Shown piece after piece: positions 7,757 to 30,536 of a stretch of DNA of 30,717 bases; position 1 is the first letter of the stretch, and every line of letters begins with the position of its first letter. The notes under the pieces were generated by a model. The model ran no database searches, had not been told where the DNA came from, and worked only from the letters and a program-made list of their open reading frames with translations. The translations under genes and the position numbers were made by a program. The stretch covers positions 1 to 30,717 of IMG/VR virus record IMGVR_UViG_3300031705_000029, one strand, 5' to 3'. The DNA comes from a virus.

Positions 7757-8932
7757 ATGGCAATAGATTATACAAGTATAGACGAGGTAGTTAATGACTT
7801 TCAGTTAATGATTGATGACACCTCTTACGATAAAGAAGCTCACGTGTACCAACTTAGACTACTAGCCTTACAAGGTTTAAGGGAGTTGAAGTTTGACGTA
7901 GAGCAAGAGGTTAAGAAAGCCTCTAGAGTGGTTACTTCTAATCTACAGATAGACCTTCCTGCTGATTTCGTTAAAGCACTAAGGATAGGATTCAAGGGTA
8001 GTGATGGAAATTTTCACGCCTTAGGTAATAATCCTAACTTAAGTTTAGACGCACTGGTAGCAGCTCAAGTAGGTAGCTCAACTGTCGATAATGATCCAAA
8101 CTACAGACTAGATGTTGGTAAGAAGTTTGGTATTGGTGGTGGGAATAATAACTTAGGTTATTATAGGGTTAACAGGAATGATGGGACTATAAACTTCTCC
8201 TCAAGCCTTGAAGGTAAGACTGTCTTTATGGAGTACATCTCTGATGGTGTTTCATACGAGATGCCTCAAGATCATATTATTAAGATGTCGTTTTATGGTC
8301 ACGCAGCCGCTGGGTTTACTGGAGTTAAAGATGGTGCTTCTTTAAGGATCCCATATATAGATAGTTCTGGTAGTGTCTCTACATTTACCTTTACGGTAGG
8401 AGGAATCCCTTCTAGTGCTTATAATATACACATTGTTGGGGGGGAGGGTAGTTCTTCTATAGCACAAAAATTTGTTAACGTTATAAATGAAGGGTACCCC
8501 CTACAAAGGATTCCCCCTATTAATTCAGGGATAAAAGCCTCTAACGATGGAAATGTAGTTACCTTAATATATAGTGATTCTTCTTCAGTCCCTTTGGATG
8601 TTGGAAATTCAACCTTCTCTACCAACTACGATGGAAATGCTATTGCTGGACAGGCAGAATCCAAGGTATTAAGCGGTCCTATGGCGTTAGTCCAACTAGG
8701 CGTAGCTGGAAGTAGACCTATGGTTCATAAGTTCTGCGAGGAAGCTTTACGTTGTTACATATACTACAAGTACGTACAGAGAAAAAGAGGAATCCCTGCT
8801 AACGAGAAGCAGATGGCTAAGAGAGCATTCTTCAACGAGAAAAGATTAGCAAGGGCTAGGATGATGAGTTTCAGTAAAGAGACCGCATTACAAACCTCAA
8901 GAAAAGCATTTAAACAATCTCCAAAGTTTTAA
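7757..8932 (+). CDS. Probable neck/ring protein with an inserted beta module (391 aa)
   Basis: Second candidate adaptor between portal and muzzle. Residues 1-183 contain an N-terminal helical pair (YTSIDEVVNDFQLMIDD, VYQLRLLALQGLRELKF) followed by a beta section with LQIDLPADFVKALRIGF and VFMEYISDGVSYEMP. Residues about 309-391 are a basic helical tail (VHKFCEEALRCYIYYKYVQR, later KRAFFNEKRLARARMMSF). Both parts resemble a conserved protein of Bacteroidetes podoviruses. Residues about 184-303 look inserted: a Ser/Gly-rich beta module (SLRIPYIDSSG, VSTFTFTVGGIPSS, IAQKFVNVINEG, DGNVVTLIYSD) of a type that recurs in phage virion proteins and is probably surface-exposed. The insertion breaks what would otherwise be a continuous strand-to-helix body. 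ATG 7757 lies two bases after the previous stop; the next gene starts three bases after this one. Confidence 0.6.
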   Translation: MAIDYTSIDEVVNDFQLMIDDTSYDKEAHVYQLRLLALQGLRELKFDVEQEVKKASRVVTSNLQIDLPADFVKALRIGFKGSDGNFHALGNNPNLSLDALVAAQVGSSTVDNDPNYRLDVGKKFGIGGGNNNLGYYRVNRNDGTINFSSSLEGKTVFMEYISDGVSYEMPQDHIIKMSFYGHAAAGFTGVKDGASLRIPYIDSSGSVSTFTFTVGGIPSSAYNIHIVGGEGSSSIAQKFVNVINEGYPLQRIPPINSGIKASNDGNVVTLIYSDSSSVPLDVGNSTFSTNYDGNAIAGQAESKVLSGPMALVQLGVAGSRPMVHKFCEEALRCYIYYKYVQRKRGIPANEKQMAKRAFFNEKRLARARMMSFSKETALQTSRKAFKQSPKF

Positions 8933-8935
8933 TAG

Positions 8936-11900
8936 ATGGCACAAGATAAGAAAGTATTTACAGGTGGGATGGATAAAGATTCTGATCCTCGCCTGATTAA
9001 GGGTGGTGACTATAGAGACGCTTTAAATATACGAAATGTATCATCCTCAGACAGCACTTCAGGTTCTGTAGAGAATATAGAAGGGAACACTTTAGTTCCC
9101 TTTAAGTTTATAGATGAGGTTGATCAACTGATTGAGATTACGTCAACAGAAGGTAATCAGTTTATAGACGAGATAGATACGAGTCAAGTGTTCAATCAGG
9201 TAACTATAGATATTACAGGTAAGGAGAGTCCAGGTAATATATTTAACTTCTCTTTAGGGTACTTAACCCCTAGTAATACGCAAAACCTTATAGAGTTTAG
9301 TCCTATAAGTTGGCCTTCAAACCCAGGCATGACTAGTACCTCAACAGCCCTATATAATAGTTTTGGTCCTGGAGGTCCTTTATATGAGATACATGTAGAT
9401 GATATTGATACAGGACTTCCTGTAATACTTGTGGCTGAGATTAATTTCACAGAAGGAGACGTGTTTAATGGGTCAACTTTCAGTATAACCTACACGTGTA
9501 CCCAAGCAGGTGCAAACTTCTCTTTATCTGCTAATAGTAGCTATAGTGGTCCTGGGATAATATTTGGTAGTGTCGCTCTTTCTGACCCTATAGATATAGC
9601 TCAACAGAACGGAAGCCCTAGTGCTGCAATGAATATAAGTGGGAGTGTATCTACTGTTAATTCTACAGTAGACTTAGGCAGTAACGTAGACGATCAAGGT
9701 AATAGCTTTGGTGCTGGTGGTGCTATAAACACTGGTGGTACTATTATCGATTTAGAGATTTCAGGATCATCTCCTACTTCAGCTTCAGAGGCTGTAGTTG
9801 ACGATGTAATACTATTCTCTTATACTCAAGCAGGTGGTGACGGATCTAGCGAAAGCGACTGGTTAGTTGAGCCTGTAATAGATTTAGGAGCAGCAACAGA
9901 ATCGTTTGGTTCAGGTGGAGAGTTTGAGTTTGACTCAGGTCAAGATAGTATAGCTGGATTTCTTACAGCTATAGTTGAAGACGAAGATAAGTTCAATAAC
10001 ATATTAGTAGATGGTGGTAATGGTACCGTAACAGGTTTAGGGGATATATCTACAAACTTCCTAGAAGGAACGAAACTACAAGGTAATAACAGTAACATAG
10101 GAAGAAACAATCCTAGCGAGGTAAGTTACTCTCAATTGGAGTATTACTACGACAACACAGAAGTAATAGAGGGGGATGGTTTCACTATAGACGAGGGAAC
10201 ACTTACCTTTAGCGGAACAGACATCCTATCGGGGAATACGTACCCTCTTAAATCCTCTATAATCGAGGATAAGGCTTACCTATTATCATTTACGGTTGCA
10301 GGTTTAGTGAGTGGTTTATCTCTAAATTTTAATATTGGTAATCAAGAGTTTACCTCAGTGGAAGGGAATGGTATTAAGACTTTATATATCACCCCAGAGA
10401 ACAACTCCTCTATAATATACATAACATTTAATAAAGACTTCACCTCTTCTAATGAGGTGGTTATAACGAACCTAAGGCTATTCTTAGAGGACGTACCAGT
10501 AAACGTCTTCTCTATTAGGTTAGCCTCTATTGGGTCTACAAGATTTAATCTAGCTTTCAGTTCTAGTGAGGGGAAATTAAAGAATGCTTTATCTGCAGGA
10601 AAGCAGTCAACTCAAGTTAGAGAATGGTTCCCTGGGGTTGCCTTAAGTTTAGTCACAAAAAACATAGGGGATGGTTATGGAGTTATAGCTGGGGTGCAAC
10701 TAGCTGAGTTGCAGGAAGCTCTACTTGAGGCTGAGCAGACAATAACTGCTTTATGGGATCAGATAAACTCAATCAGTGATGAACACGATGCAGAGTTAAA
10801 TACTTTAACCTCACAATTAGCTGAAGCAAACAGTGATCTTACACGAGTTAAAGCAGAACTTACAGCTGCTTTAGCTCTTAATGAGGTTCTACAACTTAAC
10901 TTAGACGCTCTTCAGGGGTATGTAAGTGCGTTTTTAACAGCCCAACAGAGTGGTGATGAGTTAGCCACTGTAGATGCATACATCAGTACTATAGAAGGTT
11001 CAAGTTCTATTACAGCCACCATAATGGATGCTATAATAGGATTAAGTACCACCACTGTAGTTGACCCTCAGACTCAAATAGCTATAGATGATTATATATT
11101 ACAAATAACTGATTTACAATCACAGTTAGATGCTCAATCATTAGTAATAACGAGTCAAAACGATATAATTATAGCTATGGTGGATGCTCACAACGCAATT
11201 ACAGTTAGTCTTATTGCAGCTGACGATAGCTTAACTAAATTAAATATAAGTCAAGAACACATTGACAGCCTAAGTGTCTCTGAGTTAATTGCTTATATGG
11301 GTGAGCATGCTGTAACTGTATCTGCTTTAACAAGTGGATATATAGATCTAGCCGCTAATTTACAAAGTGAATTAGATATAATTGTACCAGAAGACGGTGT
11401 TTCTCAATCTGATGTAGATGTAGTACAAGCCTTATTAGATGCAGTTGTTCCTGAAGATGGAGTTTCTCAGTCTGATGTGGATGCCGTACAGGCTTTACTG
11501 GATGCAATTGTACCAGAAGATGGCGTACATCAATCTGATGTGGATGTAGTTCAAGCTTTATTAGATGCTATTGTTCCTGAAGATGGTATCTCTCAAGCTG
11601 ATCTAGATGCTGTAGAGGCTGCATTAAACATATTAGTTACTCAAAACGAGGAAAATGAGGCCTACTTAGCTACTGTTGAAGCTGAATTAATAGCTACCAA
11701 CTTAACCTTAGATGCTATATACGCAGAAGAGGCAGCCAACCCTTCTGTGATAGACTTAACGGAACATTTACTGGATGGTGACTTTAGCAATCCTGGATCT
11801 AGTGATTGGGGCCTGGGTTTAAGCCATGATACTAGTCAACAGAATTTACACGCAACAGGGGGTACTACATTTACTACTCAGAATTTTACTCCAGTTTCTG

Positions 11901-14900
11901 CTGGTGATTATATTATTAGCGTAAACGTAACTGATTACAAAGGAGGTCGTATTTCTATGTCTTTGTACACAACGGATTACACTAAAAGCACTTCACTTCC
12001 ATTTATATCTAGTGAAGGTAGACATATATTTAATGTGAATTTAGATGAAGGGACTAGTATTATTTACTTAAACACCAGTACGAAGGGTCTAAGTCCTATT
12101 ATAGATCTTACTGTTGATGATATATCTATAGTTAGTGCCTCCTCATCTACTGGGGTAACAGCCTCAACAATAGAAAACCTATTAGCGTTTACAGAAGAGT
12201 TGAAGGATTCAAATGATGCCTTAATAGAAGGGGGTGAGGCTATAGGTGTTGAGATATTACAATTAGAGTCGGAGTTATCTACAGCCAACGCTAATATAGA
12301 TGCCTACTCTATATCATTAAGCTCTATGAATACTAGTATAGCAGGAATAGGGTCAGCTATACTTAATGTAATATCTGAATTAAGTATTACATCTACTATA
12401 ACTCAAGAAGACATAGATGATTTTATAACCTCATACGATATAAATAACCTAAACCTGTCAGAGCAAACAACTGGTATTAATGAGTTAATAACATACCTAG
12501 TAGATCAGATAGCCTTATTGGAAGGTAGTAGCCCTACTAGTAACGAGACAAACACTAGGTGGATGTTAACCTTTAGTGGAGCTGTGCCAGTATCACCAAA
12601 AGCAAGTAACACCCCTTACATGCAACTCGCAATAAAAAACTCTAAGACTGGGGATACTAATCTTTTAGCTCTACCGATTGTATCTCTTTACTCAACCACC
12701 AATGCTGGTAGAGCCTTCGCTTTGGGTTCTTCATCTTATATTCAGGAATCTCTTTCTCATAACGGTAGCCCAGTTATGCTCGCTATATCGAGATTAAATG
12801 AGTTGTCTGGATATTCTACGTACACTCAGGATTTAAAATTACAATCTGACCCAACCCAGTATATCACGTCTCCTGCGGTTTTTATCGTTCCTGTAGACGT
12901 AAATGGAGAGGTTGAACAATTAAAGTTTACAGCACACAATTTTAATTTTCAGAACCTACTAATAGACGAAAATGAAGATCCTTTCTTTGGTTCTGCAGTT
13001 GGTAGTCAAATTTCCCATTTTAACACTACTGAACAAGTCTTGTTAGGCGATAGAGGATCAACCCCTATAGCTGAAGACGATCTTCAATGGCTATCTAAAA
13101 GGGGGGTTAATTCTGGTATTCAACTAGAGGTAGAAGCTCTTGGTGGAACCTCAGATTGGGGCTTATATATTACATCAAATAACGATTCAGGAACCCTCAT
13201 AACAAATCAGTTTACGCAAGAGTTATTCAATACAGGTTCGGATGATAGCTATAGGTGGCGTATAGGTGGTTCTGATGCGTATGATTCAGAATCTAATACT
13301 CACCTGTCTGGCTATCAATCCCTCACTCTTAATGCTACAATAAAGAACCCAGTAGGAGTAGGATCCAGATCTATAGAAACTTCACAAGGTTCAGCAGAAA
13401 GTTTTGTAGCAGCAGCAGCAGCACCTAACTTCTCTATAGACAAGGTAAGACCTAAGGTTAATTTACCTGTAAATAAAAACACCCCTAAAGGAGATACATC
13501 TAAGTTCCGAAGAAAACATAATGACGAGTTAATTTACCCGTCTAAGAAGTCTGATATTATATTAGTTAAGTCTAGAGATTTACGACCTAACTTGACTGGT
13601 AACATATTTGGAGCTAAGAGGTTTGTAAGGAATAAAATACTTAAGAAGACTACAGCTGTAGATAACTCAAGTTCATCTTATAAGTGTATAGGTACGTATG
13701 AGGATAAGCCAAAGAACTCTATATACTACTTTGTACATAACTCAGATAAGGGTGAAAAGTTTGACTGCATCCTAGAGTATAGCTTAATAGATAATGAAAT
13801 TAGAACTGTATACCAAGACGGTAGACAGGGATCTAATGGTTTAAGTGAGGGTATACTTAACTTCGATCTTGATCACGCTATAACAGGAGTTAATAAGGTA
13901 GATGATATACTTTACTGGACAGACAATTTAAATAGACCTAGGAAGATAAACGTTTCCCTTGGTAAGAATAACGAGGTAAATATTAGTAAGGCTATAAAGT
14001 TTAAGGATGTGAACTTCCCTGGGGGACATGATAAATCAGTATTCTTAACTTATAATGATATAGCTCTAAAGAGTAAGTATAGTATCGGAGATGCTGTGTA
14101 CACACACACTAACTCAGGAGAAGAAGCTACATCTTACAATGGTTACGCTGAAGTTTTAGGTATAGTTAGAAGGATGCCCGCAGGCCTTACGTTTAACACT
14201 ACAGATACATCTACTACAGTAATAAGTAGTGTAGCCCTTACATCGTCTCAATTAGAGGTTGGGGAATGGATAGGGATAATGGACAGTGCTAACTTCCCTA
14301 GATTCTATCAGGTTGATAATATATCTGGAAGCACAATAACAACTGTATCTCCTGTGACGTTTACGTTAACAGCAGCTAAGGCTCTATTCTTTGTTCCTGG
14401 AAGTAACATTGGAGGGTTATTAACTAACTGTCCTTTCCAGAGTTTTGGGCTAGTTCCTGGTATAATAATGTCTGCAGATCCATCTGATGCGTACTCCCCA
14501 CTTATTAGTTTTGGGAAGTATGAGGATAAGATGAGGTACTTTGATGTAATTAAGCACCAACCACTAAAGAGACCTGTTACAGAACTTGTACCAGACACCT
14601 CTTACGCTAAGAATAACATCCTAGATACTCTATTTCAATTCAAGTACAGATACTCTCACCAAGACAACGAGAACACTTCGTATAGTGGTGTATCTAATAT
14701 AAACATAGATCCTGAGTTTGCGAGGAACACTCCACTTACATTTACTGAGTATAAAAACACAGCGAATACTATAGAGGTAGAATACTTTGATACTATATCT
14801 GATGTTAAGAAGATAGAAATAACTACAAGGAAAGGTAACGATGGGGAGTTTACTCTAGTTGATACGGTTCAGAACAACTTCATAAGGTACCTTAAGTCCC

Positions 14901-17900
14901 TTAAGAATGAGGTTATAGTTGATCCTGATTATTTCTTTGACATACCTAAGTCTATTATAAAATTCAGAAACAATGGGGTATATCCTTTCATTGATAAATC
15001 TGAAGGGGATAACTTATTTGATGCTGTACCTAAGTTGGCTAAGGCTCAAACTATCATATCAGATAACAGGTTAACTTATGGTAACATACTAGAGGGGTAC
15101 GATAACACACCTTTAGTTGTAAGTAGTAGCTTTGATGCTGAAGGACCTATAATTGAAACAACTTCTTCTAACATAGCTGTTTACTCTACTACAGGAACCT
15201 CTCTTCCTGTAACAACATTCTCTACAACTAATACCTCTTCAGCTAACAACTCTAGTATTGCCTCCGCAATTAATAGTGGATCTAGCGGTAATAATTGGGG
15301 TGATGATGGAGGACAAAACTGTAATGTTGTTCTTTACATTGAGCTCGCAGGATTAAACCTTAATAATGTAGACTCTCAAACCTTAAGCTTAAACTTAGAG
15401 TTTGGACTTCAGAGAAAACTTATTGGTGGTAGATCTAGAAAGAGGTCAGGTAGATTTAATATGAATATTGATATTACTGGATTAGAAACATTTAATGAAG
15501 TTCGTAATGAAATAATTAATCAAGCAGGCCAAGGGAATTATGAAGGAGGATTAGATATAAGTTTTTCAGCTGCTAACTTTAATGGTGATGACGGCACAAT
15601 AACTGTCACCCCTCAAGGGAGTAGGGTTAAGGTTAAGTTTCATTTTATTGATAATGACTTAACTGACGAAATTGGTAACTGGAATGTTGGATGGAATGAA
15701 TGGGAATACTCAAGAGCAGTAATAAATACTAAACTACTTAGTGGTGACGCTGGATTTAATACCTTCAAAACGGGAGCGTTCCATGACTTTGGTATATCAT
15801 ACTTTGATGAGACCAACAGGTGTTCATTTGTTAATGTTGCCCCTGACTATGGTAATGATGTAATCCTACAAGAGGGGTACAACACAACTTCAGTCTATGC
15901 AAACCTAAACGGTACAAGACCATATAACTACTTCCCTACAGAGACTAACGGTCCTGCTATAGGGCAGACATCTGGTCTTAAATTAAGTATATACAATAAG
16001 CCTCCAAGTTGGGCTACAAGCTATCAAGTTATGTACGCAGGTAACACCTCTGTAGATGACTTCATGCAGGTTACTGTACCTCACGTAATCCCTGGGGTTG
16101 GTGGAGATACTCAGATGTACTTAAGTCTACAATCGCTTAAATCACATAAGGCTAGTTATACTGAAGCTACAGGAGCCTTAACTGACTTTGACGTGGCTAA
16201 AGGAGATAGAATTAGATTTATTAGTTGTGATACAACCTCTGGAAGGAAGAAGTTTAACGACTACCTAGACTTTGAGATTACAGGTTTTGATTATTACAAC
16301 GAAGAAGATGCTGATGTTGATGGTAACCCTATAGACATTGCTGCTGGTCAAGGTGGATTCTATATAAGGATAGCAAATCCTGGTAGTACATTAGCTCAAA
16401 CAGAAGGTGGGGATGTAAGTATTAACCACTCTGGTTTCTCTTTATCTGGTAGTGGGTATGATAAACTTATAGCTGAGTTATACAGACCTAAGAAAACTCA
16501 GACACCTGAGAACTTAGTGTACTTTGAGTTGGGAGATAGGTTAGAGATAGGAAATCCAGGTGAGGCTAACAACTACCACGCTGGTATTGAGGATCAAGGG
16601 AATGATTATTTCTACGACAAAGACGTTAATACAATGGTGTCTTTAGTTCCTGCTGTAATCAATATAAACCAAGGGGATATATATATCAAGTCTAGGAACA
16701 TGTTTACTGTAACTGATGGGGCATCCCTTGAGAGTTTCCCTTGCGAGAGTTACTACCTTAACGATTTCCACAGTACTAACCACTACGATAAAGGAAGGAT
16801 TAACGTTGTAAATAACAACTCTAAGGAGAGAAATCTAGGGGTAAGTGTTTACTACTCAGAGCCTTACGTAAGTACTGGAGCTATTAACGGTTTGTCTTCA
16901 TTCAACCTAGCTAATAGTCCTTACTTCGATTACAACAAAGAGTTTGGGTCTATACAGTCTTTACATACAAAGGATAACGACTTAATTATATTCCACGAAA
17001 GTAAGGTGGGTAGAGTTCTTGTTGGTAAGGATATTCTTAATACGGCATCAGGTGAGGGACTAGTATCGTTATCTAATAACGTGATAAGTAACTACGTAAG
17101 TTTATATGCTGGACAGTTTGGTTGTGGGTTAAACCCTGAGTCTATTGTAAAGCATGGACAGAAGTTCTACTTCGCTGATATAAAAAGGGGAGCTATACTT
17201 AGACTATCAACTGATGGTTTAACTGTAATTTCTGAGTATGGAATGAAGGATTACTTCAGAGACCTTGGTGAGATGTACATAAAGTACAACCCAGACGGGA
17301 TCAAAACTTTCAGTGATAGCATTGTTGGTGGAGGTAAAACTATAGTACCATACCTACTTGTTGGAGGTTACGACCCTAAGTATGATGAGTATATCATAAC
17401 CTTCCCTGAGATTTCAGCTGGAGGAAGAAACTACGTTGCTGGAAATGCAAGTACGATTAAGAACTGGAGTGACGGTATCCTAAATTGGGATGACGCAACT
17501 TTAGATCCTAACATGAAGAATAATAAGGTGATATTCAACGCTGTTACTTTAGGGTTTAGTGAGGGCACAAACAAGTGGACATCGTTCTACTCTTTCGTTC
17601 CTGACTTCTACTCTAAGATAAACAAGCAATTCGTAAGTTTCAAGCAGGGTAGAGTGTACAGACATAACGACTCTGACTTGTACTCTAGAGCTAGAGCTGA
17701 CTTTAACAACTTCTATGGTAATGGAAACTTATCATATATTGACTTTGTCTTTAACGCAGACCCGTCAAGTGTTAAGAGTTACAACGCTATAGGTTTAGAA
17801 AGTGATACTAAGTTTATTACAGGAATGTTTACTAATACAGGTCAGCATTACGGTAACTACGATGACGTAGCAACCACTAGTATAGCGTTCAAGAAGGTTG

Positions 17901-18781
17901 ATGGTTTAGTTACTGGTACTGCTGGTTCTAATTTAATCACAGGATCTGGAACTGAGTTCTACGAGAGTGTAACTCCAGGGGATTTAGTTAGAGTGTTTGG
18001 GTATGAAAAAGGAACTTACGTTCATAGAGACTTTATAGTAACTAAGGTAATATCTAATACTCTTATCTCTGTAAATGAAAAGCTAGGTATAGACGCTGAT
18101 AATAGCTACATGCTTGTTATAGACTACAAGACTAAGGAAGGTATTCAGTACTCTAGTATTCCTTTCGTAACCTCTGGTTTATCCTCTACGGGAGATAACT
18201 TCCAGTTTGGTGATGGTTCTGAGATACAAGGTGTCGGAGTTGGAACAGGGATTGATACAAGCTCTGCTTATGTATTATTTAGTGAGGTAGGTAACGTGGA
18301 TCTTAATAAATCTATATCCCTATCACAGATGGTTGTAGGTGGGGAGTATGTGATTAAGTACATACCTGAAGTGTCAACGTTTAACGTTTCAGATGTAGAC
18401 CCTTCTGTAAACTCTACCACTTTAGGTACTACATTCACATGTAAAACCCCTTCATCTGATAACTCAGCTACAGTTATGCCTACAGAGGTAAAACTATACG
18501 TTAAGAATTTAGATAATACTACAACTTTCTTAGGTTACCCTTATATTGTACTTTCAGGTAAGGTGTACTTTGTTCCTGCACCTAACCTTAATGATGTGTT
18601 TGCTCAAGCAAATAAAACAGGATTCTACTTCACAGCAAAAAGTGGAGAGGTAGAAGGAGAGAAGATGAAGGGTAGTTATATGAGAACTATCTTAGCAACA
18701 AACAAGAGTCAGTCTAAGAAGAAGTTTAACCTATACGCTGCCAATGCAGATGTAGACAAGAGTGAACTTAGTAACAGATAA
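8936..18781 (+). CDS. Giant muzzle/tail-hub protein with fibre-like insertion (3281 aa)
   Basis: The N-terminus (VFTGGMDKDSDPRLIKGGDY, DALNIRNVSSSD, VENIEGNTLVP, residues 7-56) and the body after residue 1580 (YKCIGTYEDKPKNSIYYF, KVDDILYWTDNLNRPRKINV, GAFHDFGISYFDETNRCSF, a C-terminal EKMKGSYMRTILA and FNLYAANADVD) match the muzzle/tail-tube type proteins that close the short tail of crAss-like podoviruses. They suggest repeated beta-blades. Between residues 57 and 1580 lies foreign-looking material: Ser/Gly-rich beta domains (60-390), a jelly-roll-like domain (395-525), a coiled coil (586-700), four 21-residue repeats (816-899), a second jelly-roll-like domain with LLDGDFSNPGSSDW (943-1065), another coiled coil (1075-1200), a beta domain (1205-1350) and an Ala5 linker (1492-1496). 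A further insertion lies at about 2065-2240. At over twice the length I would expect, it may also carry host recognition. Start ATG 8936 follows the previous stop by three bases. Confidence 0.78.
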   Translation: MAQDKKVFTGGMDKDSDPRLIKGGDYRDALNIRNVSSSDSTSGSVENIEGNTLVPFKFIDEVDQLIEITSTEGNQFIDEIDTSQVFNQVTIDITGKESPGNIFNFSLGYLTPSNTQNLIEFSPISWPSNPGMTSTSTALYNSFGPGGPLYEIHVDDIDTGLPVILVAEINFTEGDVFNGSTFSITYTCTQAGANFSLSANSSYSGPGIIFGSVALSDPIDIAQQNGSPSAAMNISGSVSTVNSTVDLGSNVDDQGNSFGAGGAINTGGTIIDLEISGSSPTSASEAVVDDVILFSYTQAGGDGSSESDWLVEPVIDLGAATESFGSGGEFEFDSGQDSIAGFLTAIVEDEDKFNNILVDGGNGTVTGLGDISTNFLEGTKLQGNNSNIGRNNPSEVSYSQLEYYYDNTEVIEGDGFTIDEGTLTFSGTDILSGNTYPLKSSIIEDKAYLLSFTVAGLVSGLSLNFNIGNQEFTSVEGNGIKTLYITPENNSSIIYITFNKDFTSSNEVVITNLRLFLEDVPVNVFSIRLASIGSTRFNLAFSSSEGKLKNALSAGKQSTQVREWFPGVALSLVTKNIGDGYGVIAGVQLAELQEALLEAEQTITALWDQINSISDEHDAELNTLTSQLAEANSDLTRVKAELTAALALNEVLQLNLDALQGYVSAFLTAQQSGDELATVDAYISTIEGSSSITATIMDAIIGLSTTTVVDPQTQIAIDDYILQITDLQSQLDAQSLVITSQNDIIIAMVDAHNAITVSLIAADDSLTKLNISQEHIDSLSVSELIAYMGEHAVTVSALTSGYIDLAANLQSELDIIVPEDGVSQSDVDVVQALLDAVVPEDGVSQSDVDAVQALLDAIVPEDGVHQSDVDVVQALLDAIVPEDGISQADLDAVEAALNILVTQNEENEAYLATVEAELIATNLTLDAIYAEEAANPSVIDLTEHLLDGDFSNPGSSDWGLGLSHDTSQQNLHATGGTTFTTQNFTPVSAGDYIISVNVTDYKGGRISMSLYTTDYTKSTSLPFISSEGRHIFNVNLDEGTSIIYLNTSTKGLSPIIDLTVDDISIVSASSSTGVTASTIENLLAFTEELKDSNDALIEGGEAIGVEILQLESELSTANANIDAYSISLSSMNTSIAGIGSAILNVISELSITSTITQEDIDDFITSYDINNLNLSEQTTGINELITYLVDQIALLEGSSPTSNETNTRWMLTFSGAVPVSPKASNTPYMQLAIKNSKTGDTNLLALPIVSLYSTTNAGRAFALGSSSYIQESLSHNGSPVMLAISRLNELSGYSTYTQDLKLQSDPTQYITSPAVFIVPVDVNGEVEQLKFTAHNFNFQNLLIDENEDPFFGSAVGSQISHFNTTEQVLLGDRGSTPIAEDDLQWLSKRGVNSGIQLEVEALGGTSDWGLYITSNNDSGTLITNQFTQELFNTGSDDSYRWRIGGSDAYDSESNTHLSGYQSLTLNATIKNPVGVGSRSIETSQGSAESFVAAAAAPNFSIDKVRPKVNLPVNKNTPKGDTSKFRRKHNDELIYPSKKSDIILVKSRDLRPNLTGNIFGAKRFVRNKILKKTTAVDNSSSSYKCIGTYEDKPKNSIYYFVHNSDKGEKFDCILEYSLIDNEIRTVYQDGRQGSNGLSEGILNFDLDHAITGVNKVDDILYWTDNLNRPRKINVSLGKNNEVNISKAIKFKDVNFPGGHDKSVFLTYNDIALKSKYSIGDAVYTHTNSGEEATSYNGYAEVLGIVRRMPAGLTFNTTDTSTTVISSVALTSSQLEVGEWIGIMDSANFPRFYQVDNISGSTITTVSPVTFTLTAAKALFFVPGSNIGGLLTNCPFQSFGLVPGIIMSADPSDAYSPLISFGKYEDKMRYFDVIKHQPLKRPVTELVPDTSYAKNNILDTLFQFKYRYSHQDNENTSYSGVSNINIDPEFARNTPLTFTEYKNTANTIEVEYFDTISDVKKIEITTRKGNDGEFTLVDTVQNNFIRYLKSLKNEVIVDPDYFFDIPKSIIKFRNNGVYPFIDKSEGDNLFDAVPKLAKAQTIISDNRLTYGNILEGYDNTPLVVSSSFDAEGPIIETTSSNIAVYSTTGTSLPVTTFSTTNTSSANNSSIASAINSGSSGNNWGDDGGQNCNVVLYIELAGLNLNNVDSQTLSLNLEFGLQRKLIGGRSRKRSGRFNMNIDITGLETFNEVRNEIINQAGQGNYEGGLDISFSAANFNGDDGTITVTPQGSRVKVKFHFIDNDLTDEIGNWNVGWNEWEYSRAVINTKLLSGDAGFNTFKTGAFHDFGISYFDETNRCSFVNVAPDYGNDVILQEGYNTTSVYANLNGTRPYNYFPTETNGPAIGQTSGLKLSIYNKPPSWATSYQVMYAGNTSVDDFMQVTVPHVIPGVGGDTQMYLSLQSLKSHKASYTEATGALTDFDVAKGDRIRFISCDTTSGRKKFNDYLDFEITGFDYYNEEDADVDGNPIDIAAGQGGFYIRIANPGSTLAQTEGGDVSINHSGFSLSGSGYDKLIAELYRPKKTQTPENLVYFELGDRLEIGNPGEANNYHAGIEDQGNDYFYDKDVNTMVSLVPAVININQGDIYIKSRNMFTVTDGASLESFPCESYYLNDFHSTNHYDKGRINVVNNNSKERNLGVSVYYSEPYVSTGAINGLSSFNLANSPYFDYNKEFGSIQSLHTKDNDLIIFHESKVGRVLVGKDILNTASGEGLVSLSNNVISNYVSLYAGQFGCGLNPESIVKHGQKFYFADIKRGAILRLSTDGLTVISEYGMKDYFRDLGEMYIKYNPDGIKTFSDSIVGGGKTIVPYLLVGGYDPKYDEYIITFPEISAGGRNYVAGNASTIKNWSDGILNWDDATLDPNMKNNKVIFNAVTLGFSEGTNKWTSFYSFVPDFYSKINKQFVSFKQGRVYRHNDSDLYSRARADFNNFYGNGNLSYIDFVFNADPSSVKSYNAIGLESDTKFITGMFTNTGQHYGNYDDVATTSIAFKKVDGLVTGTAGSNLITGSGTEFYESVTPGDLVRVFGYEKGTYVHRDFIVTKVISNTLISVNEKLGIDADNSYMLVIDYKTKEGIQYSSIPFVTSGLSSTGDNFQFGDGSEIQGVGVGTGIDTSSAYVLFSEVGNVDLNKSISLSQMVVGGEYVIKYIPEVSTFNVSDVDPSVNSTTLGTTFTCKTPSSDNSATVMPTEVKLYVKNLDNTTTFLGYPYIVLSGKVYFVPAPNLNDVFAQANKTGFYFTAKSGEVEGEKMKGSYMRTILATNKSQSKKKFNLYAANADVDKSELSNR
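11381..11632 (+). repeat. Four tandem 63-bp coding repeats in the muzzle insertion
   Basis: Four consecutive 21-codon units start at 11381, 11444, 11507 and 11570. Each encodes I/V-V-PEDG(V/I)-x-Q(S/A)D(V/L)D followed by a VQALLDA-type helix; the fourth is the most diverged. Many third positions differ between units while the residues stay the same (for example GTACCA/GTTCCT for Val-Pro). The repeats are therefore old and kept by selection on protein, not a fresh DNA duplication. They probably form short helix-turn units in a stalk between coiled coils. Confidence 0.9.
13409..13423 (+). repeat. (GCA)5 microsatellite encoding Ala5 at an insertion boundary
   Basis: Five GCA codons in a row (residues 1492-1496) close the Ser/Thr-rich beta region. 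They precede the basic segment NFSIDKVRPKVNLPV, which leads back to the conserved muzzle body. Likely a flexible linker and a potential site of length variation. Confidence 0.7.
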
Positions 18782-18787
18782 TAAAAA

Positions 18788-18804
18788 AATAATCATTACA
18801 TTTG
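18788..18804 (+). promoter_or_regulatory. Bacteroidetes-type -7 element upstream of internal virion genes
   Basis: TACATTTG at 18797-18804 is a perfect TAnnTTTG match in the 38-base gap after the muzzle gene, 15 bases before ATG 18820. No good TTTG is seen 17-22 bases upstream, because that region is the end of the muzzle gene. The promoter may be weaker or need an activator. The surrounding AATAATCATTA is repeated after the last large gene (30471-30481). Confidence 0.5.
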
Positions 18805-18819
18805 TAAAAATACAAAATC

Positions 18820-19740
18820 ATGGCACGTAAAATAAAAGCTAAAGTTTCTTATAAGAAGAATAAAAACTCTAAAGCTCCTAAGGCTGCTATTGGTGCTGCC
18901 CTTACGGCAGGGCTGGGTGCTGCTAAGTTTATCTCTGGAGCTATTCAGAAGAATAAAGCTAATAAAGCTGAGGATGCGTTTGATAAAAATAGATTAAATG
19001 ATCAGGTAAGTTCTGCTACTCAAGAGTTGGCAGATCAACCTATAGATGCTAATATAGTAAAGCAACAGCAAGAGAACGCTTTAGTTTTACAAGCTCAGAC
19101 TATGGGTAATGCAGTCAAGGGAGATCAAAGAAACGTTCAGACTGTAGCTACACAATCTCAAGACACTGCTCAGAAAGGTTTATTAGAACAGTCTATTGAA
19201 GCTAACGCAGCTAAAACTTCAGCTATGCAAAACTTAGCTAAGGAGCAAAATAGGGTTAAGGCTCAAAGTATAGATGTTGCTGGTGCAGAAATCGAAGGTA
19301 TTAAAGCTGAGAAGGATGCAGGTGCTCAAAATATGTGGGGTGGTGTAGAAGATATAGCTAGTGGAGCTGCTGGAATGTTTAAGAAAGGTGGCTCTATAGA
19401 GGCTGAAGAAGGTGGAGTTACACCTGGAGAGTTTAGCCACGAAGATAATCCTATTGATATGGTTCAAGACGGAGAGAAGATTGGTGAAGCTACAGGTGGA
19501 GAACTTATACTACCACCTAAAGACGTTGAGGCTGTAAGGTCTGCATTAGACGAAGGAGATAAAGATGCAGCGTTTAAGCTTATGGAAGAGCTTGTAGCTA
19601 AGTACGATAAGAATGTTATAGAGTCAGAAGATGCAGAAGGTGGAGCTACTCAAGGAGAAGGAACACCAGAAATGAATAAAGGTGGATACCTAAATAAGGT
19701 TAAAGCTAGAATGGGTGCTTACATGAAATCAAAATACTAA
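18820..19740 (+). CDS. Probable internal virion (ejection/cargo) protein (306 aa)
   Basis: A basic N-terminus (MARKIKAKVSYKKNK) is followed by a small-residue hydrophobic helix at 22-42 (AAIGAALTAGLGAAKFISG), then an Ala/Gln/Asn-rich, helical region to about 165. The C-terminal third contains GGVTPGEFSHEDNPIDMV with DGEKIGEATGGELILPP (about 198-235), a motif I associate with an unnamed protein family in marine phages, where forms with 'GGE(Y)xxxP' recur. The gene is the first of three after the muzzle, just as T7 gp14 precedes gp15 and gp16. A short amphipathic or membrane-inserting ejection protein is therefore a reasonable inference. It is preceded by a promoter element and followed three bases later by the next gene. 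No enzyme motif is present. A minor tail protein is the alternative. Confidence 0.6.
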   Translation: MARKIKAKVSYKKNKNSKAPKAAIGAALTAGLGAAKFISGAIQKNKANKAEDAFDKNRLNDQVSSATQELADQPIDANIVKQQQENALVLQAQTMGNAVKGDQRNVQTVATQSQDTAQKGLLEQSIEANAAKTSAMQNLAKEQNRVKAQSIDVAGAEIEGIKAEKDAGAQNMWGGVEDIASGAAGMFKKGGSIEAEEGGVTPGEFSHEDNPIDMVQDGEKIGEATGGELILPPKDVEAVRSALDEGDKDAAFKLMEELVAKYDKNVIESEDAEGGATQGEGTPEMNKGGYLNKVKARMGAYMKSKY

Positions 19741-19743
19741 GAT

Positions 19744-21198
19744 ATGGCTGGAGAGGGATTATTTTTTGCAGGTACAGTTCTTAAAAACAATCGTGACCTT
19801 ATAAAGGAAGACATGGCTCGTGAGGAGCTTGAGCTTAAAAAAGAACAGTTGGAGCTTCAAAAACAGGCTGCAGCTAATAAAAGAAAAGACGCTAGGAAGA
19901 AGAATCAGCCTAAATCTTTAAACCCTAGCACTTCCAATATGGGCGGTGATCTTGGGTCTAGGTTTCAGAAAAACCAATTATTAGGCTATAAAGAGAGAAG
20001 AAACGCAAGCTCTATAGATGAACTTGAAGGAGGCTTAGAAGCTATGAACTCAAGGTCTTTGGATGATACTGAGCTTTTATCAACAGCAGGGATATACAGC
20101 CAAGTTTGGTCTGAGGTGTCAGCTAACAGAGAACTTTCTAGAGGGGCTAATAGTAGTTCTTTAAGAACTAATGATGATGGAGGTTACACCTTCGATGATA
20201 ACTACAACGCTTTCTTAGCGGATATAGATAATGGTATACCTCCAGAAGAGGCTTACAAAATTTACTCTTCAAGAGATAGCGACATCAAAGAGACTGAGTA
20301 TACGAATCCTATACCTAGTCTATATAAGGATGGTGTGACTAAGAACATTACAAACAGAACTGATGGTAGTGCCTACGAAGAGTATGTAGGTGTAAGTTCG
20401 GCATCTAAGCTTTTAGAACAAAATTTAACACCAGATAAAAATGGTAACTGGGATAACCCAGCATACAAGAAATTATATTTAGGTCAAGAAGGTTTAGTGG
20501 AAGCTAAAGGTGTAGAAGAAATGATGAGTTACCCTGCTGCTTTTGCTTTTGAAACTAGAGGTATTGGATTGGATCCTAATGACACCACGTTTACAGATAA
20601 GTTAATACCTGGTTCTGATACTTACGAACCTGAATTAGCTAATGAGTACATTCAATACATTAGAAGGAAGTCAGAAGATCAAGCTAACATAGATTACCCT
20701 AAACGAGAGACGAAAGGTAAATCATTACCAAAAGAAGACAAGGATAACCCTGCTTTATCTCAGGATAAGATAGACTTCTTTATGGGCGACTCAGAAGAGA
20801 CTGAATCTTATGGGTTGTCTGAATTAAAGGTATCACCTAATTTTGGTGAGGATATTTCTGACTCTAACATAATAACAGTTTTATCAAAACTATCCCCAAT
20901 AAAGGAGCAGGGAGAGGCTAAACTTAAAGAGTTTAGTGATCTTTGGCAGGTTGCTAACTCCGAAGGAACTGACGTACCTGTAGAGGGTAAGGTTAGCTGG
21001 ATAGGTATGACGGTGTCAGGTAAAACTGTAGCTAGAGTTGAGTTCTCAGGTCAATCTTTCTTAATAGATTTAGCAGATATAGCCTCTGAAAAGAGTAGCG
21101 TTAAATCTGGTGCTGCAACAGCGTTCGACTTATTTGAGTTAGCTGAGACAGGATCAAATAGTAGTTCTAATGGAAATAAAGAAAAAGTTTCATGGTAA
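19744..21198 (+). CDS. Probable internal virion protein of unknown family (484 aa)
   Basis: I do not recognise a named family. After MAGEGLFFAGTVLKNNRDLI comes a strongly charged single helix at about 18-60 (REELELKKEQLELQKQ, then KRKDARKK), typical of coiled coils. The rest is hydrophilic with few cysteines and no signal peptide or catalytic motif. Residues about 412-446 (KVSWIGMTVSGKTVARVEFS followed by a short QSFLIDLADI) may be a small SH3/OB-like beta domain. Its place between a hydrophobic-helix protein and a giant polyvalent protein matches the position of T7 gp15, part of the ejected core. That is positional inference, not homology seen. Its last 7 bases overlap the next gene's start (ATG 21192 within the 3' end), implying coupled translation and probably assembly in one complex. 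Confidence 0.55.
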   Translation: MAGEGLFFAGTVLKNNRDLIKEDMAREELELKKEQLELQKQAAANKRKDARKKNQPKSLNPSTSNMGGDLGSRFQKNQLLGYKERRNASSIDELEGGLEAMNSRSLDDTELLSTAGIYSQVWSEVSANRELSRGANSSSLRTNDDGGYTFDDNYNAFLADIDNGIPPEEAYKIYSSRDSDIKETEYTNPIPSLYKDGVTKNITNRTDGSAYEEYVGVSSASKLLEQNLTPDKNGNWDNPAYKKLYLGQEGLVEAKGVEEMMSYPAAFAFETRGIGLDPNDTTFTDKLIPGSDTYEPELANEYIQYIRRKSEDQANIDYPKRETKGKSLPKEDKDNPALSQDKIDFFMGDSEETESYGLSELKVSPNFGEDISDSNIITVLSKLSPIKEQGEAKLKEFSDLWQVANSEGTDVPVEGKVSWIGMTVSGKTVARVEFSGQSFLIDLADIASEKSSVKSGAATAFDLFELAETGSNSSSNGNKEKVSW

Positions 21199-24100
21199 AA
21201 GGTGATGATTTAAATAAGTTATACGAAGCAGTTTCAACAAAGTTTGATATTGGATCTTTTGATGACTTCTCCGCTAAGATGGAGACAGAGGACATGCGTA
21301 AAAGTTTTTACGACACTGTTGCTGGTAAAGGTTTAGACCTTGGTTCTTACGAAGATTACGAGAGTCGTTTAAAAAAAAAAGACGATTCAGTTGTCTCAAG
21401 CATACTACCCCAGACGGATTCAGAGGATACTCCATTACAGTCGGAGCTTTCTCAGCCTTCATTGGAAGAAACTTCTCAGAATAGTTTAGAGGATAGATTT
21501 TCTGGTTATAGTGACATGCCTGAGGTAGATCAGGTTGACATGCGAAAACAAGAAGAGTCACGCCAATTCTTTGAGGCTAACGGTTTAGATTTAGACGAGA
21601 AGGTTGACTTCGATAATAGACGAAAAGCTTTAGAGGAGTCAAACAAGAAGGAAGAGGAATCTGAGGAAGACTTAGGTTTCTTTGGTAATTTATATAAAAA
21701 CATTACGAGTACTGAGGATTTAGAGGATGATATGTTCACTACAGAAGAAGACGCTGTAAACACTTATTTCTCAGAGAATGACGATAAAATATTTGAAGCT
21801 GAAAAGCAGTACACCCAAGCTAAGGTAGAGCATATTAAATCAACCTTCCCACCAGAACAAAGATTAGAGCAGTTTAAAGCTGAGGATATAGACTTAGGTT
21901 ATGTCCCTATTAAAAACTTAAAGATTAACGGTGAGGAAGTTAGCGTTAAAGAGTTCGAGAAGAACGCTTACAATCAAGATTTCATAGATCAAGTACAAGC
22001 AGGAGAGATAGACATTGAAGTTTTAGACACTCAAGGAAACGAGGTGTTAGAGAACTTGAATAAGTTATTGATTAGACAAATTGAGTCTGGAGGACAATGG
22101 GGCGATGTAGCTCAATCGTTCTACGCAGGTGGTTTAGATATGCTTATTGCTGGGCCTTTAGAATTACTTGAGGGTGTAGGAGCACAATCAAGTCCTTACC
22201 AACAAACTATGTTTAAGATGCATGGTGGTTTCTTAGCGAACAAAGTTCATAACTACGCTAATAGTCAACGTGATAAAACTAGGCTATACGCAGAGGATAG
22301 TATGTCTGAGTCTTTACTTAACGGAAATTGGGGAGACGCTTTCTTTCAAACAGGTAACGCTATAGCTGAGTCAGCTCCATTAATACTTTCTATGTATGCT
22401 GCAGCACCACTAGGTTTAGCTGAGGGTGCTACCCTTGGTCTTGCAGGTGTTTCTTCAGGAGGACTTAAAGATATTGAGCTTAGAGATCAAAGATTAAAAG
22501 GCGAGATAGACATATCTGAAGGAATGCTTCTAGCTAATGATGTTCTTACAGGTGGTGCTGAGATGTTCTTTGAGAAGTTCACCTTAGATGCTGTTAACGC
22601 TAGTAGAGGTGTGTTTAAGATGGCTAAGATTAATCCAAGCGAGATAGCTGAAGGTATCGTAAAAGGATTATATAAGAACGCTCCAGTAGAGGGTTTATCA
22701 GAACTTGCTACAGAACTTAGTAACTCCCTTACTGATTTAATCACTAGGGATATAGACTACGAAAAAGGTGAGTTAAAAGATACAGCAGTTAGCATTGAAG
22801 AGGTAGCCGTAAGGATGTCTGATTCTTTCCTTGTTGGTACCATTATGGGTGCTGGGATGACTACTACTCCTTACTTATCACAAACACTAAAGAGCTTTAA
22901 GATTATAGATAAGAATATATCCACTGTATTTACTATGGAGGATGGTTCTGTCAAAGAGATGAGTAGAGCTGAAGGTTTAAGATTCGTTAAAGACCCAGAG
23001 GTTGCTGATCAAATAAGAAGGAGTGCTATTAAGATGGATGTATCTATGAATGATATAGCCAGACAAGAGTTAGAGGATGTTGTTTACGGATACAGTGCAC
23101 CTGATGCCTTAGCCTCTAGAGAGGTTATGCGTGGTAAGGAAACTGTAGTACAGGATTTATCTACTAAGATAGCAGAGTCAGAGGAAGTTTCTACTGAGGA
23201 TATAAATAACCTATCTAAAGCCATCACTGAGCTGGAAGCAGAGGGTAAGGTTTCTAAGTACAACGAGTCTGAGACAACTGTAGCTACTAGGAAAAAAGTT
23301 CAAGCTATCCTTAAAGAGAAAGGAATTGAGATAACTAACGCTACCCAAACTCAGGACGTATCAGCCTCTAAGGTTACTAATACCACTGAGGTAAATAAGA
23401 TTAACACTGAAGAGGAGTATCGTAGCATAAAGAAACAAGTAAAAGATAAGAGAATCCCTAAGGTTATAACCTCTGAAACTCAAACAGGTGTCACCGTAAA
23501 AGGTAAGGTTGTACAAGAGTCAGAAGTAACTCAGGGTCAGTTCAAGAATATTGCTGCAGCAAAGAATGCTATCAAAGAATACAAAACAAAAGTTAAGGCT
23601 GCAAAGGAAGGAATGATGGTTGAGAATGATCTGTTCCCTGCTAACAATAAGCTATTCATAAAGACCAAACAAGAGAGCCTTGACGAGGTTCCTCAGGAGG
23701 TTTTAGACTCTAAAGAGTACTACGTGTTAACTTCTGAGAAAGAAGGCCTTACAATAGAGGAAAGGGACGCTAGAATGGTTGAACTTAAATCTATGCTAGA
23801 CAAAGCTGGAGCTAAGTACTACACAGTTCAAGGTGTTTATAATGGTGTTGCTGAAGAGAGTTTGGTTGTGACAGGACTTAATGAAGGTCAAGCTTTAACT
23901 ATTGGTAGGCAGTTTGGTCAAGACTCTATTTTCTCAGCAGAGAAAGGTCTTATGTTTAGTAGTGGTGCTGTAGTACCTTTAAATGGTGACGCCGTAGAAG
24001 GTGTAGATGCTAGGAAGAGAGATGCTTTAACCATAATGAATGTTGGAGGGAAGAAAGTTTCCTTACATACAGGACTTGATTGGGGTAAGATGAGTTACGG

Positions 24101-27100
24101 TAAGAACTTTAACTCTGATAACATACATAGATTAGATGATAGTGACCCTAACTACGACAAGGAATTGTTCGAGGGAGTTACTGAGGATAGAAAGAGAGCT
24201 TTAGGTTTCGCTTTTAAACTTCTTAACTCTATTGGAGGACTTAATGTTACTGTAGTTAGAAATAGTGCAGCAATGGCTCAACAGCTAGAATCTCTAGGTC
24301 AAGACCCTGCTAATAGTAGGGGTTCATTCTTTAGGGGTGCTGATAAAACTATTTACGTAAACCTTGAGACTGTACAGGGGAATACTTTATTCCACGAGAT
24401 TATACACCCAATGGTTGATTTCATTAAGGTGAATGACGCTGCGTTGTATAGCAGAATAGAGCAGGAGGTTACTGATAGTAACGTGAAGAGGCGAACTACC
24501 TTGAAGGGTAAGAAAATGAAAGGTTCATACCTTGAGTGGGCTGAAGTAAACTACGCTAATCTTTCTAGAGAAGGTCAGATAGAAGAAGCATTCGCTGAGA
24601 TGATGGGTGATGCTGCTTATGGGCACTTTAAGAATAGACAATCTAAACTTAATAGAGTTTTAGATGTTATAACAGCTATCCTTAAGAAATTAAATATTGA
24701 TGTAACTAAAGAAAATATAGCTTCTATTAACTTAGATGATATGTCTTTAGCTGATATGAGTACTAACCTTGCAGATGCACTCCTTGATGGTAGAAAGATT
24801 ACTGTTGGTGGTGTTGAGTTTGAGGTTGGAGATATGCCAGGAGAGGTAGAACCTAAGTTTCAGTTAGACGCTGTAGATAGAAGGACTGGGATACAGTACA
24901 CTTACGATAAAAACTCAAAGGTGTTTGCTGAGATGGAGGCTGATGGACGTATCACTAGTGGTAAGACCATACAAGACTTCAAAGGTAAGACAATGATGAT
25001 ACATTCTCCTGACGCAACATTCTCAGGGTCTGTTATTGATGCTGATGGTACAATCCTAGTAGAGGGGAAGGGTGGAATTTATTACACAATGAAGTTCAAC
25101 GATGAAGGTTACTTCTGGGCTTCTACTGATAATGCTGCCAATGGTATGGTTAAGCAGTTAAACTCTATGTTGGAGGTTAATGGTGGTAAAATATACATGG
25201 CTCTTACTACAGCTAGGGAAGGTAAATTACTTTCTAATACAGCTATGTCTAGAGGTATGGTTAACTTATTCACTTCTAAAAACTTTATATCTAAGATAGG
25301 CCTAAATAAATCTGAGGTTTATAAAGCTTTAATTAAAGCGTCTAACGAGGTTGATCCTAAAGATTTTGGATTGAAGTTGGGTATTGAACCTTATAGAGCA
25401 AGCTCTAAATTCGAGGAAGATATTATTGAGAAGGTATGGGCTAAATTAGATAACAAGAAGAGTTCATTCAATGATAGAAAACTATTCACTGATAAATTCC
25501 TAACCTACGTTAAGGCTTCTATTGAGTCTGGAACAAGTAAGGTTAACTTCGTAAACTTCATCAAAACTACGATGGGCGATGAGAGTTTAGTAGGATTTAA
25601 TAAACAAGGAGAGGCTAGTATTGGTAGTATGAAGAAGGCTTTAGTAAATGTACTTACAGAGCCTGAACTTAGAAATGAGTCAACTACTAATAAGGTGTAT
25701 GCTGTGCTAGAAATTAACGGACCCGTAAAGTCTGTTAAGGATGATAGATACGAGAGTTATGGTACTGCTATAGCGTCTGAAGACGGTAGTAAGGCTAAAA
25801 TACATAGGTTAGATAATAGAGAGTTTTGGTACAACGTTGCTGAGGATCCTAAAACTAATGAGATTATTGGTGACGCTGAAAGAGTTAGTGGGTCAGGAAA
25901 AACAACCCTAACAAGGAATCAAATATTCCCCCCTACCGCTGGTGTTTCAACTACTCCATTAAAAATATCTAATGATATTAGGTTCCAAGCTCCTTCGTAC
26001 GATATGGAGTATACACCTAACGCTCTGGTTTCCTTGAATATGCAAGACATAGATAAGGCTAACCCAACAGAATGGGTGAGTAGAATATCTAAAGGGGTTA
26101 AAGGATCTGCTAGAGATGTTGATACCATGGGATTACTAGAGGCTTTAACTTCTTACCAGAAGGAAGCTAAGGTTAAGAGTATACCTAAGGAGGTTGTAGC
26201 TCAGTTGATTGCTACTAACATGGCTGAGATTGAAACTAAGATTTTAGAGAATGATCCTGTAGTTAATTACGATGATTATTCTGTAGGTTATGATGGAGAT
26301 ACTTATGGTATTACAACGCTTGAGGGTCTTATCATAAACTCTGGAGTAGATGTTACAACAGACGTAGAGGAGTTAACTAGGGTTGAGAGGATGAATATTA
26401 TAGACTACGCTCTAGATAGCGTCACAGTAGGTACTAGATACGCTGGGGTAACCCTTCCTGGAGGGGAGAACTATAGAGAGTTCCTTATTAGAGATAAATC
26501 TTCTGAGGAGATATTTACAGCACCTCACTACGATGAGTTTGGAGAGAATCTTATAGCGTCTGTTAGAGCTGACGATAGAGTTGGACCCAATGGGGAGAAA
26601 GTATTGTTTGTTCAAGAGATTCAGAGTGACTGGGTTCAAGGAACTAATAAGGGTGACTTTAAAACTAAGGACGAGATTAAGGAGCTAGAAAATAAAAGAA
26701 CTTCTTTTTATAAAGAAGAGGCTAAAATAAACACAGAAAAAATAAAATTAGATGATTTAAAGAGTTCTAAAATCAATGAAGTAGCAGAAAGAACCTCTAT
26801 AATTAATAAGCATGAAAAATTAAGGGTCGAGGGTAATGATGGCTCAATATCCAATGAAGAGTATAAAGATTTATATGTAGACACTAACTCAAGCGGTCTA
26901 ACTATTATTGATGAGGTTATTAAGGAATATGAAGAAAAGAATATAGCTGATGTTAAACTCGTGCAAGGTATTCAAAATGATATTTACCGTTTAAATTCAG
27001 AGTTAACCTCTGCACATCTTGATGGGAAAGACGCTCAATATAATCTTGAAAAAATTACACCATATCTACCTTGGAATCAAACAGACCTATGGGTTGGACT

Positions 27101-30443: not shown

Positions 30444-30460
30444 AGTGACTAATAGTTACT
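30444..30460 (+). repeat. Imperfect inverted repeat just after the giant gene
   Basis: AGTGACT (30444-30450) and AGTTACT (30454-30460) can pair around AAT with one G-T wobble. It lies immediately after the stop codon and is followed by an AT-rich stretch. It could be an mRNA 3'-end hairpin or a protein-binding site; the evidence is weak. Confidence 0.35.
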
Positions 30461-30470
30461 ATATTAATTT

Positions 30471-30487
30471 AATAATCATTAGATTTA
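30471..30487 (+). promoter_or_regulatory. Possible promoter-like element after the giant gene
   Basis: AATAATCATTAGATTT at 30471-30486 matches 15 of 16 bases of the segment containing the -7 element upstream of the 306-aa gene. Its TAGATTTA is one base off TAnnTTTG and no -33 element is visible. It could start transcription into the 30490-30566 leader and the 43-codon ORF. Confidence 0.3.
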
Positions 30488-30536
30488 CATCACTTCTAAA
30501 CCAGTCATAGCGGTTTTTAGGTTTTTTGGTTTGTTT

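Follow-up and report, generated by a model that had tools for sequence, protein, structure and literature searches.

A clade-specific adhesin-like module grafted near the N-terminus of a crAss-type muzzle protein

The closest described counterpart of the protein considered here is gp44, the muzzle of phage phicrAss001 (PMC10172136). The protein itself is the product of a single gene in virus record IMGVR_UViG_3300031705_000029, of which the whole analysed stretch, a linear fragment of 30,717 bases, is referred to below as the window. It has a conserved N-terminus and a propeller in common with gp44, and its putative role at the tail tip is assigned by this homology. Variation in the length of muzzle proteins by insertion is already known, and Bayfield et al. 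(2023, PMC10172136) report it for the IG2 and crass domains. The window protein differs from gp44 in that an insert of about 1,530 residues, containing coiled coils and jelly rolls, interrupts the chain at residue 56, ahead of the strand with which the propeller begins. No earlier report of the insertion of a large module at this muzzle site was found, and the literature yielded no paper describing a muzzle with receptor-binding domains. The structure of the crAss muzzle, although solved, leaves contact with the cell and the opening of the gate as questions, and the clade described in the present work bears on both, since it would place exchangeable adhesin-like spokes at a defined site of the gate.

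The gene order of the window is also found in Cellulophaga phages phi38:1 and phi13:2, in the Flavobacterium elemoviruses (elemoF), in Tenacibaculum phage Gundel_1, and in MW202828.1, the nearest annotated genome (a podovirus found at Manatee Spring, with a circular genome of 60.8 kb and 35% identity in the portal). The muzzles of these phages are homologous to the window protein in the N-terminus and the body, but they are only 1,324-1,613 amino acids long and lack the N-terminal insert. The body of the window protein matches phrog_14478 with an E-value of 1.5e-77 and PF25729 (crAss_MUZ_C) with an E-value of 4.1e-5, a match that falls short of the Pfam cut-off, and a tblastn search with a segment of the body retrieves phi13:2, Gundel_1 and the Crassvirales (Suoliviridae) phage cr55_1 (E 7e-6 for cr55_1); a sequence search of the PDB with a profile of the body gave no match. 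The gene follows the ring genes and precedes those for the cargo and giant proteins, the position expected of a crAss-type muzzle gene. By the homology of its N-terminus and body, the protein is thus identified as a crAss-type muzzle, with the following principal parts.

8936-18781, + strand: muzzle gene, 3281 amino acids, consisting of the grafted N-terminal module and a crAss-type muzzle body
8936-9103, + strand: conserved muzzle N-terminus, residues 1-56, aligning to residues 1-55 of ordinary muzzles
9104-13684, + strand: grafted module, residues 57-1583 (1,527 residues), absent outside the clade
13685-18778, + strand: muzzle body, residues 1584-3281, with propeller, IG and crass-type domains by homology

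The original prediction had described a conserved muzzle N-terminus and body separated by a long grafted segment, and each of these elements is borne out. Residues 1-56 have a mean identity of 82% across 15 relatives that carry the insert, the body begins at the motif CIGTYEDK (residue 1584), and when residues 57-1560 are removed the window protein aligns with ordinary muzzles over its whole length. In ordinary muzzles the motif ..GSVENIEGN is followed after approximately 10-20 residues by the strand ..CIGxxxDxxxxxIYxF. This direct junction is present in 12 outgroup lineages (L007-L017, MW202828.1, phi13:2, Gundel, cr55_1, phi38:1 and elemoF are among them; the match to FpV4 is weak). Beyond the outgroups, 144 more muzzle frames were surveyed in two independent scans, and 136 of them allowed a measurement of how far the first strand of the propeller lies from the N-terminal motif. 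None of the 136 loci has an insert at the N-terminal site, the longest distance being 207 residues, and in the nine full-length surveyed muzzles that are themselves long (2,381-2,989 amino acids) the extra length lies downstream of this site. In a tree of the body the insert-bearing sequences form a clade with support of 100/100, while the outgroup branches are long, so that its deeper placement is uncertain. Because the insert is absent from all 136 loci and from the 12 outgroups, and because the clade is fully supported, the N-terminal graft is assigned on sequence grounds to this one clade, and the insertion itself is close to certain.

Searches for the source of the module gave negative results. 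A tblastn search of 50,697 phage records with residues 1-1579 gave no match at an E-value of 0.1, and so identified no donor. A scan of viral contigs with the N-terminal beta block alone, which is weak because it used only exact patterns from the window, detected no relatives outside the clade. No match was found among bacterial and archaeal genome contigs, which therefore offer no clue to the host.

The clade consists of the window and 27 further contigs, in which the length of the insert varies from about 1,390 to 3,380 residues. The number of residues ahead of the body is 1583 in the window, 1451 in G003 (a near-complete genome within the sister group of the window, with support of 100/99 in the body tree), 1515 in L003, 1867 in L002, 2133 in G011, 2416 in L005 and 3433 in G010. 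The muzzle of G010 (positions 15114-30521), with 5135 residues of which about 3,380 are inserted, is the longest seen here. In two sister genomes (L004 and L028; 98/100 in the body tree) the module ends in a stop codon, and 2 bp later an ATG opens the body as a new gene. The first open reading frame of these two retains the muzzle N-terminus, and they are the only members in which the module has an open reading frame of its own. The equivalent position in the window is as follows.

13638-13641, + strand: equivalent of the gene split in L004 and L028, after ..RFVRNKI, residue 1568

The split may represent either a fission that followed the insertion or an ancestral two-gene state that was later fused, and the tree decides for neither. 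A sequencing error is an unlikely source of the split, since the same arrangement of stop codon, 2 bp and ATG occurs in both sister genomes, and since the N-terminal sequence in L004 is new and non-homologous to the fused form. Muzzles thus accept large modules at the N-terminal site, and the module is encoded by a single gene in some members and by two in others. Muzzles are also split at a second site, since the C-terminal part is carried by a separate downstream gene in several lineages: in L009 (13757-15448, crAss_MUZ_C), in L014 (9710-11647, crAss_MUZ_C), in L018 (25065-25868, where the separate gene is homologous to residues 2871-2969 of the window protein), and in MW202828.1, where it is the MUZ_C part that is separate. 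The distant relative L017 (10430-13306) has a beta-rich insert of 959 residues elsewhere in the muzzle, before the C-terminal domain, for which there is no Pfam match.

The beta domains, two jelly rolls, two coiled coils, four-copy repeat and run of five alanines that had been noted in the segment are all present, and are arranged in the following order.

9188-10144, + strand: N-terminal beta block, residues 85-403, with an AlphaFold2 predicted local distance difference test (pLDDT) score of about 75-89 over most strands
10127-10492, + strand: jelly roll 1, resembling a carbohydrate-binding module (CBM), residues 398-519, from structure comparison of the model
10505-10663, + strand: beta segment ahead of the coil, residues 524-576, 51-55 residues long in all relatives
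10685-11737, + strand: coiled coil 1, residues 584-934, on which model helices and heptad signal agree
11384-11635, + strand: four 21-residue repeats of three heptads each, residues 817-900, VPEDGVSQSDVDxVQALL
11756-12139, + strand: jelly roll 2, CBM-like, the putative tip of the spoke, residues 941-1068, from a tip model of moderate confidence
12161-12520, + strand: coiled coil 2, the putative return arm, residues 1076-1195, from model and alignment
12548-13330, + strand: exit beta domain, residues 1205-1465, from a low-confidence model and alignment
13331-13684, + strand: linker to the propeller, predicted to be disordered, residues 1466-1583
13409-13423, + strand: five alanines, residues 1492-1496, within the linker

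The beta domains span residues 85-576 in a model that AlphaFold2 built for residues 1-594 (mean pLDDT 67.8). The N-terminal beta block, to which jelly roll 1 belongs, is common to all members that carry the insert, with a mean identity of 31% and a nearly constant length. The distal part of coil 1, aligned to residues 721-934 of the window protein, ranges in the relatives from 131 to 630 residues and varies greatly in sequence; within it, in the window, the repeats start at residues 817, 838, 859 and 880, with an exact period of 21. The identity of the tip in the alignment of relatives is 20%, and coil 2 keeps a length of about 126 residues in 11 of the 15. The alignment thus fits a spoke with a constant base and a variable outer part.

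Structure comparison places jelly roll 1 nearest to Vip3A (VIA Z 11.8) and to the CBM of BiXyn10A (11.4), with CBM22, CBM29 and CBM86 at about 10, and jelly roll 2 nearest to CBM86 (11.5), the BiXyn10A CBM (11.1) and CBM29 (10.8). The fold of both is like that of CBM86, CBM29, CBM22 and CBM4 (VIA Z 10-11.5), at a sequence identity of 5-16% and with no Pfam CBM match. The best Foldseek match of the half of the module that contains the coils and tip is the central fibre of mycobacteriophage Douge (PDB 8zdp; E 6e-7). This tail-tip protein likewise combines long coils and beta domains, but it belongs to a siphophage; the template modelling score (TM-score) of about 0.1 is low and makes this a likeness of type only. 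A sequence search of the PDB with a profile of the insert retrieved only coiled-coil proteins such as tropomyosin. The insert of L005 contains two copies of the Lcl C-terminal domain (Lcl_C, PF07603; Pfam E 1.9e-19), of which there are none in the window protein.

The variable part of the module was delimited by the comparison of close relatives. Through much of the structural block L026 and L031 (the G003 locus) have an identity of about 99%, while across coil 1 and the tip (L026 12001-13200) their nucleotide identity falls to 57-69%; the synonymous divergence (dS) between G003 and L026 rises from 0.005 for the body segment to 0.72 at the tip and 1.13 along the distal coil. The reverse relationship holds for G002 and L022, whose tips are 90% identical (dS 0.06) between flanks with a dS of 0.4-0.9. 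The tip of L002 is only 31% shared with that of G002, and the bodies of the two are diverged to a similar degree. Since near-identical flanks enclose divergent tips in one case and diverged flanks enclose a shared tip in another, the sequences indicate that coil and tip cassettes are exchanged by recombination, the tips independently of their flanks. Hypervariability within the module is confined in these comparisons to the coil and tip, so that the predicted likeness to a receptor-binding fibre is upheld as regards an adhesin-like segment with a hypervariable distal part. The elongated architecture of coils and beta domains and the exchange of the tip between close relatives are the fibre-like features of the module; the module in the window does not have a gene of its own, as a receptor-binding tail fibre does, but is fused to the muzzle.

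Low-identity islands between L026 and L031 are also found in the major capsid gene, in a small adjacent gene, and in one segment of the muzzle body, which suggests that surface exposure is generally under diversification. The last of these has a nucleotide identity of 53-77%, and its position in the window is given here.

14936-15646, + strand: another variable segment, within the muzzle body; limits approximate, from homology with L026 and L031

In L026 5401-7500, which holds the major capsid gene and the small gene that follows, nucleotide identity with L031 is only 45-83%, a pattern suggesting that the head, too, has an exchanged surface cassette. A diversity-generating retroelement was rejected as the source of variation, since reverse transcriptase (PF00078) is absent from four relatives (G001-G004) in a search whose positive controls matched. 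Positive selection is not claimed: between G003 and L026 the ratio of nonsynonymous to synonymous divergence exceeds 1 in two parts, the beta block and the exit domain, but synonymous changes there are very few and recombination confounds the estimate.

The original prediction also noted that no separate tail-fibre gene appears in the window, and suggested that the host-recognition apparatus may have been transferred to the muzzle instead of residing in fibres. The former is literally true, but near-complete relatives carry fibre-like genes in the half of the genome that the window does not include, and for the clade the latter is contradicted by them. In parts of the genome that have no counterpart in the window, G002, G003, G004 and G011 encode a protein of 383-578 amino acids, and these four and G010 one of 513-519 amino acids. 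The two fibre-like proteins of G003 (560 and 515 amino acids) match tail fibres of cyanophages and other marine phages with E-values of 3e-10 and 4e-5 at partial coverage, and LamG-domain proteins are present in G002 and G003 (E 4.9e-24 and 9.4e-27). Because the relatives, including G003, the nearest to the window, encode fibre-like and LamG proteins, the gene content indicates that the graft adds to ordinary fibres and replaces none.

Taken together, these results make it probable that the muzzles of this clade bear six adhesin spokes that bind the host surface beside the gate. The adhesin module (residues 57-1583) would have been inserted once, in the ancestor of one marine crAss-like phage clade, at the point where the N-terminal segment of the muzzle gives way to the first strand of the propeller. 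One copy per muzzle subunit is plausible by analogy, and because the phicrAss001 muzzle is hexameric, six modules would be expected per virion, arranged around the tail tip. In each, the chain would exit the ring through the fixed beta block with its CBM-like jelly roll, extend along the coiled coil to a tip formed by the second CBM-like jelly roll (in relatives, by Lcl_C or other domains), and return through the shorter coil and the exit domain into the propeller. With its exit from the muzzle and its return lying side by side, the module would form a hairpin-like loop anchored at both ends, unlike a free-ended fibre. The tip and distal coil would bind variable glycans or proteins of the host surface near the gate, alongside separately encoded tail fibres, and this binding may help to open the gate. 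It is tentatively conceivable, though rather unlikely, that receptor binding is linked directly to the gate through the graft, such that binding at the tip pulls on the propeller and opens the tail without a fibre-to-baseplate signal, and that in the split genomes the N-terminal strand complements the propeller from another chain.

Several observations weigh against the presence of such adhesin spokes. The model of residues 546-1583 is poor overall (mean pLDDT 44), and a simple hairpin does not account for the unequal lengths of coils 1 and 2. A Pfam scan of the insert with E-values up to 1 detected no CBM family, and a jelly-roll fold by itself shows no function. The major capsid gene is also variable between L026 and L031, so variability alone is no proof of receptor binding; and since other fibre-like genes exist, the module may be secondary.

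The module could instead be a structural arm, a non-binding collar, skirt or spacer that lengthens or stabilizes the short tail, and whose exposed part drifts or escapes defences or predation. The variable length of the long coils, the disordered linker and the low confidence of the model would be in keeping with such an arm, as would the optional domain that the neighbouring ring protein has likewise gained, but drift produces neither the exchange of cassettes between near-identical flanks nor a tip shared between diverged genes, and it does not lead one to expect two CBM-like folds and Lcl_C adhesin domains; this explanation is judged unlikely. If the arm were a carbohydrate-active enzyme that clears exopolysaccharide or processes the capsule, CBM-like accessory domains would be natural, since such jelly rolls usually accompany carbohydrate-active enzymes. 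Pfam, however, finds no catalytic family in the window insert or in those of the scanned relatives, and the matches include no catalytic fold, so that an enzymatic role is quite improbable.

Two further alternatives concern the place of the module in the genome and its age. That the graft is the whole host-recognition apparatus, with no other receptor-binding fibre, accords with 30.7 kb of sequence that contain no separate fibre gene, but the 560- and 515-residue fibre-like proteins and the LamG proteins of complete relatives, G003 among them, make this very improbable. Least credible is that the long form is an ancestral core which other lineages have lost. The presence of the insert in every member of the clade is what such a core would produce, and colinear muzzles of 3,000 residues in relatives would point the same way; these occur only inside the one clade, however, and there with varying content and length. 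All sampled outgroups, including the Crassvirales phage cr55_1 and phi13:2, join the two halves directly (about 10-20 residues), and many parallel and exact losses would be demanded.

The window as a whole is a structural gene block, which opens with the end of the large terminase gene, the portal, the major capsid protein and small genes, and continues with two tail genes, the muzzle, two cargo-like genes and a giant protein. The genomes of relatives are about 60-64 kb long, and two of them (G003 and G004) have direct terminal repeats of about 100 bases. The gene immediately upstream of the muzzle is listed here.

7757-8932, + strand: putative tail-ring gene, phrog_13977, 391 amino acids

Its product contains a beta-type insert of about 150 residues, which is also present in L002 and is absent from G003, G010 and all outgroups compared. 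The giant virion-type protein (3083 amino acids, window 21192-30443) has a weak match to DUF3293 and a metalloprotease-like HEIIH motif. Elsewhere in the clade, G002 (45965-48385), G004 (35791-38277) and G011 (28064-31408) encode proteins of 806-1114 amino acids with many repeats of the form GCTDPxAxNYxxxANTDDGSC and a C-terminal motif like the type IX secretion signal of Bacteroidota, features by which they are possibly exported host-surface proteins.

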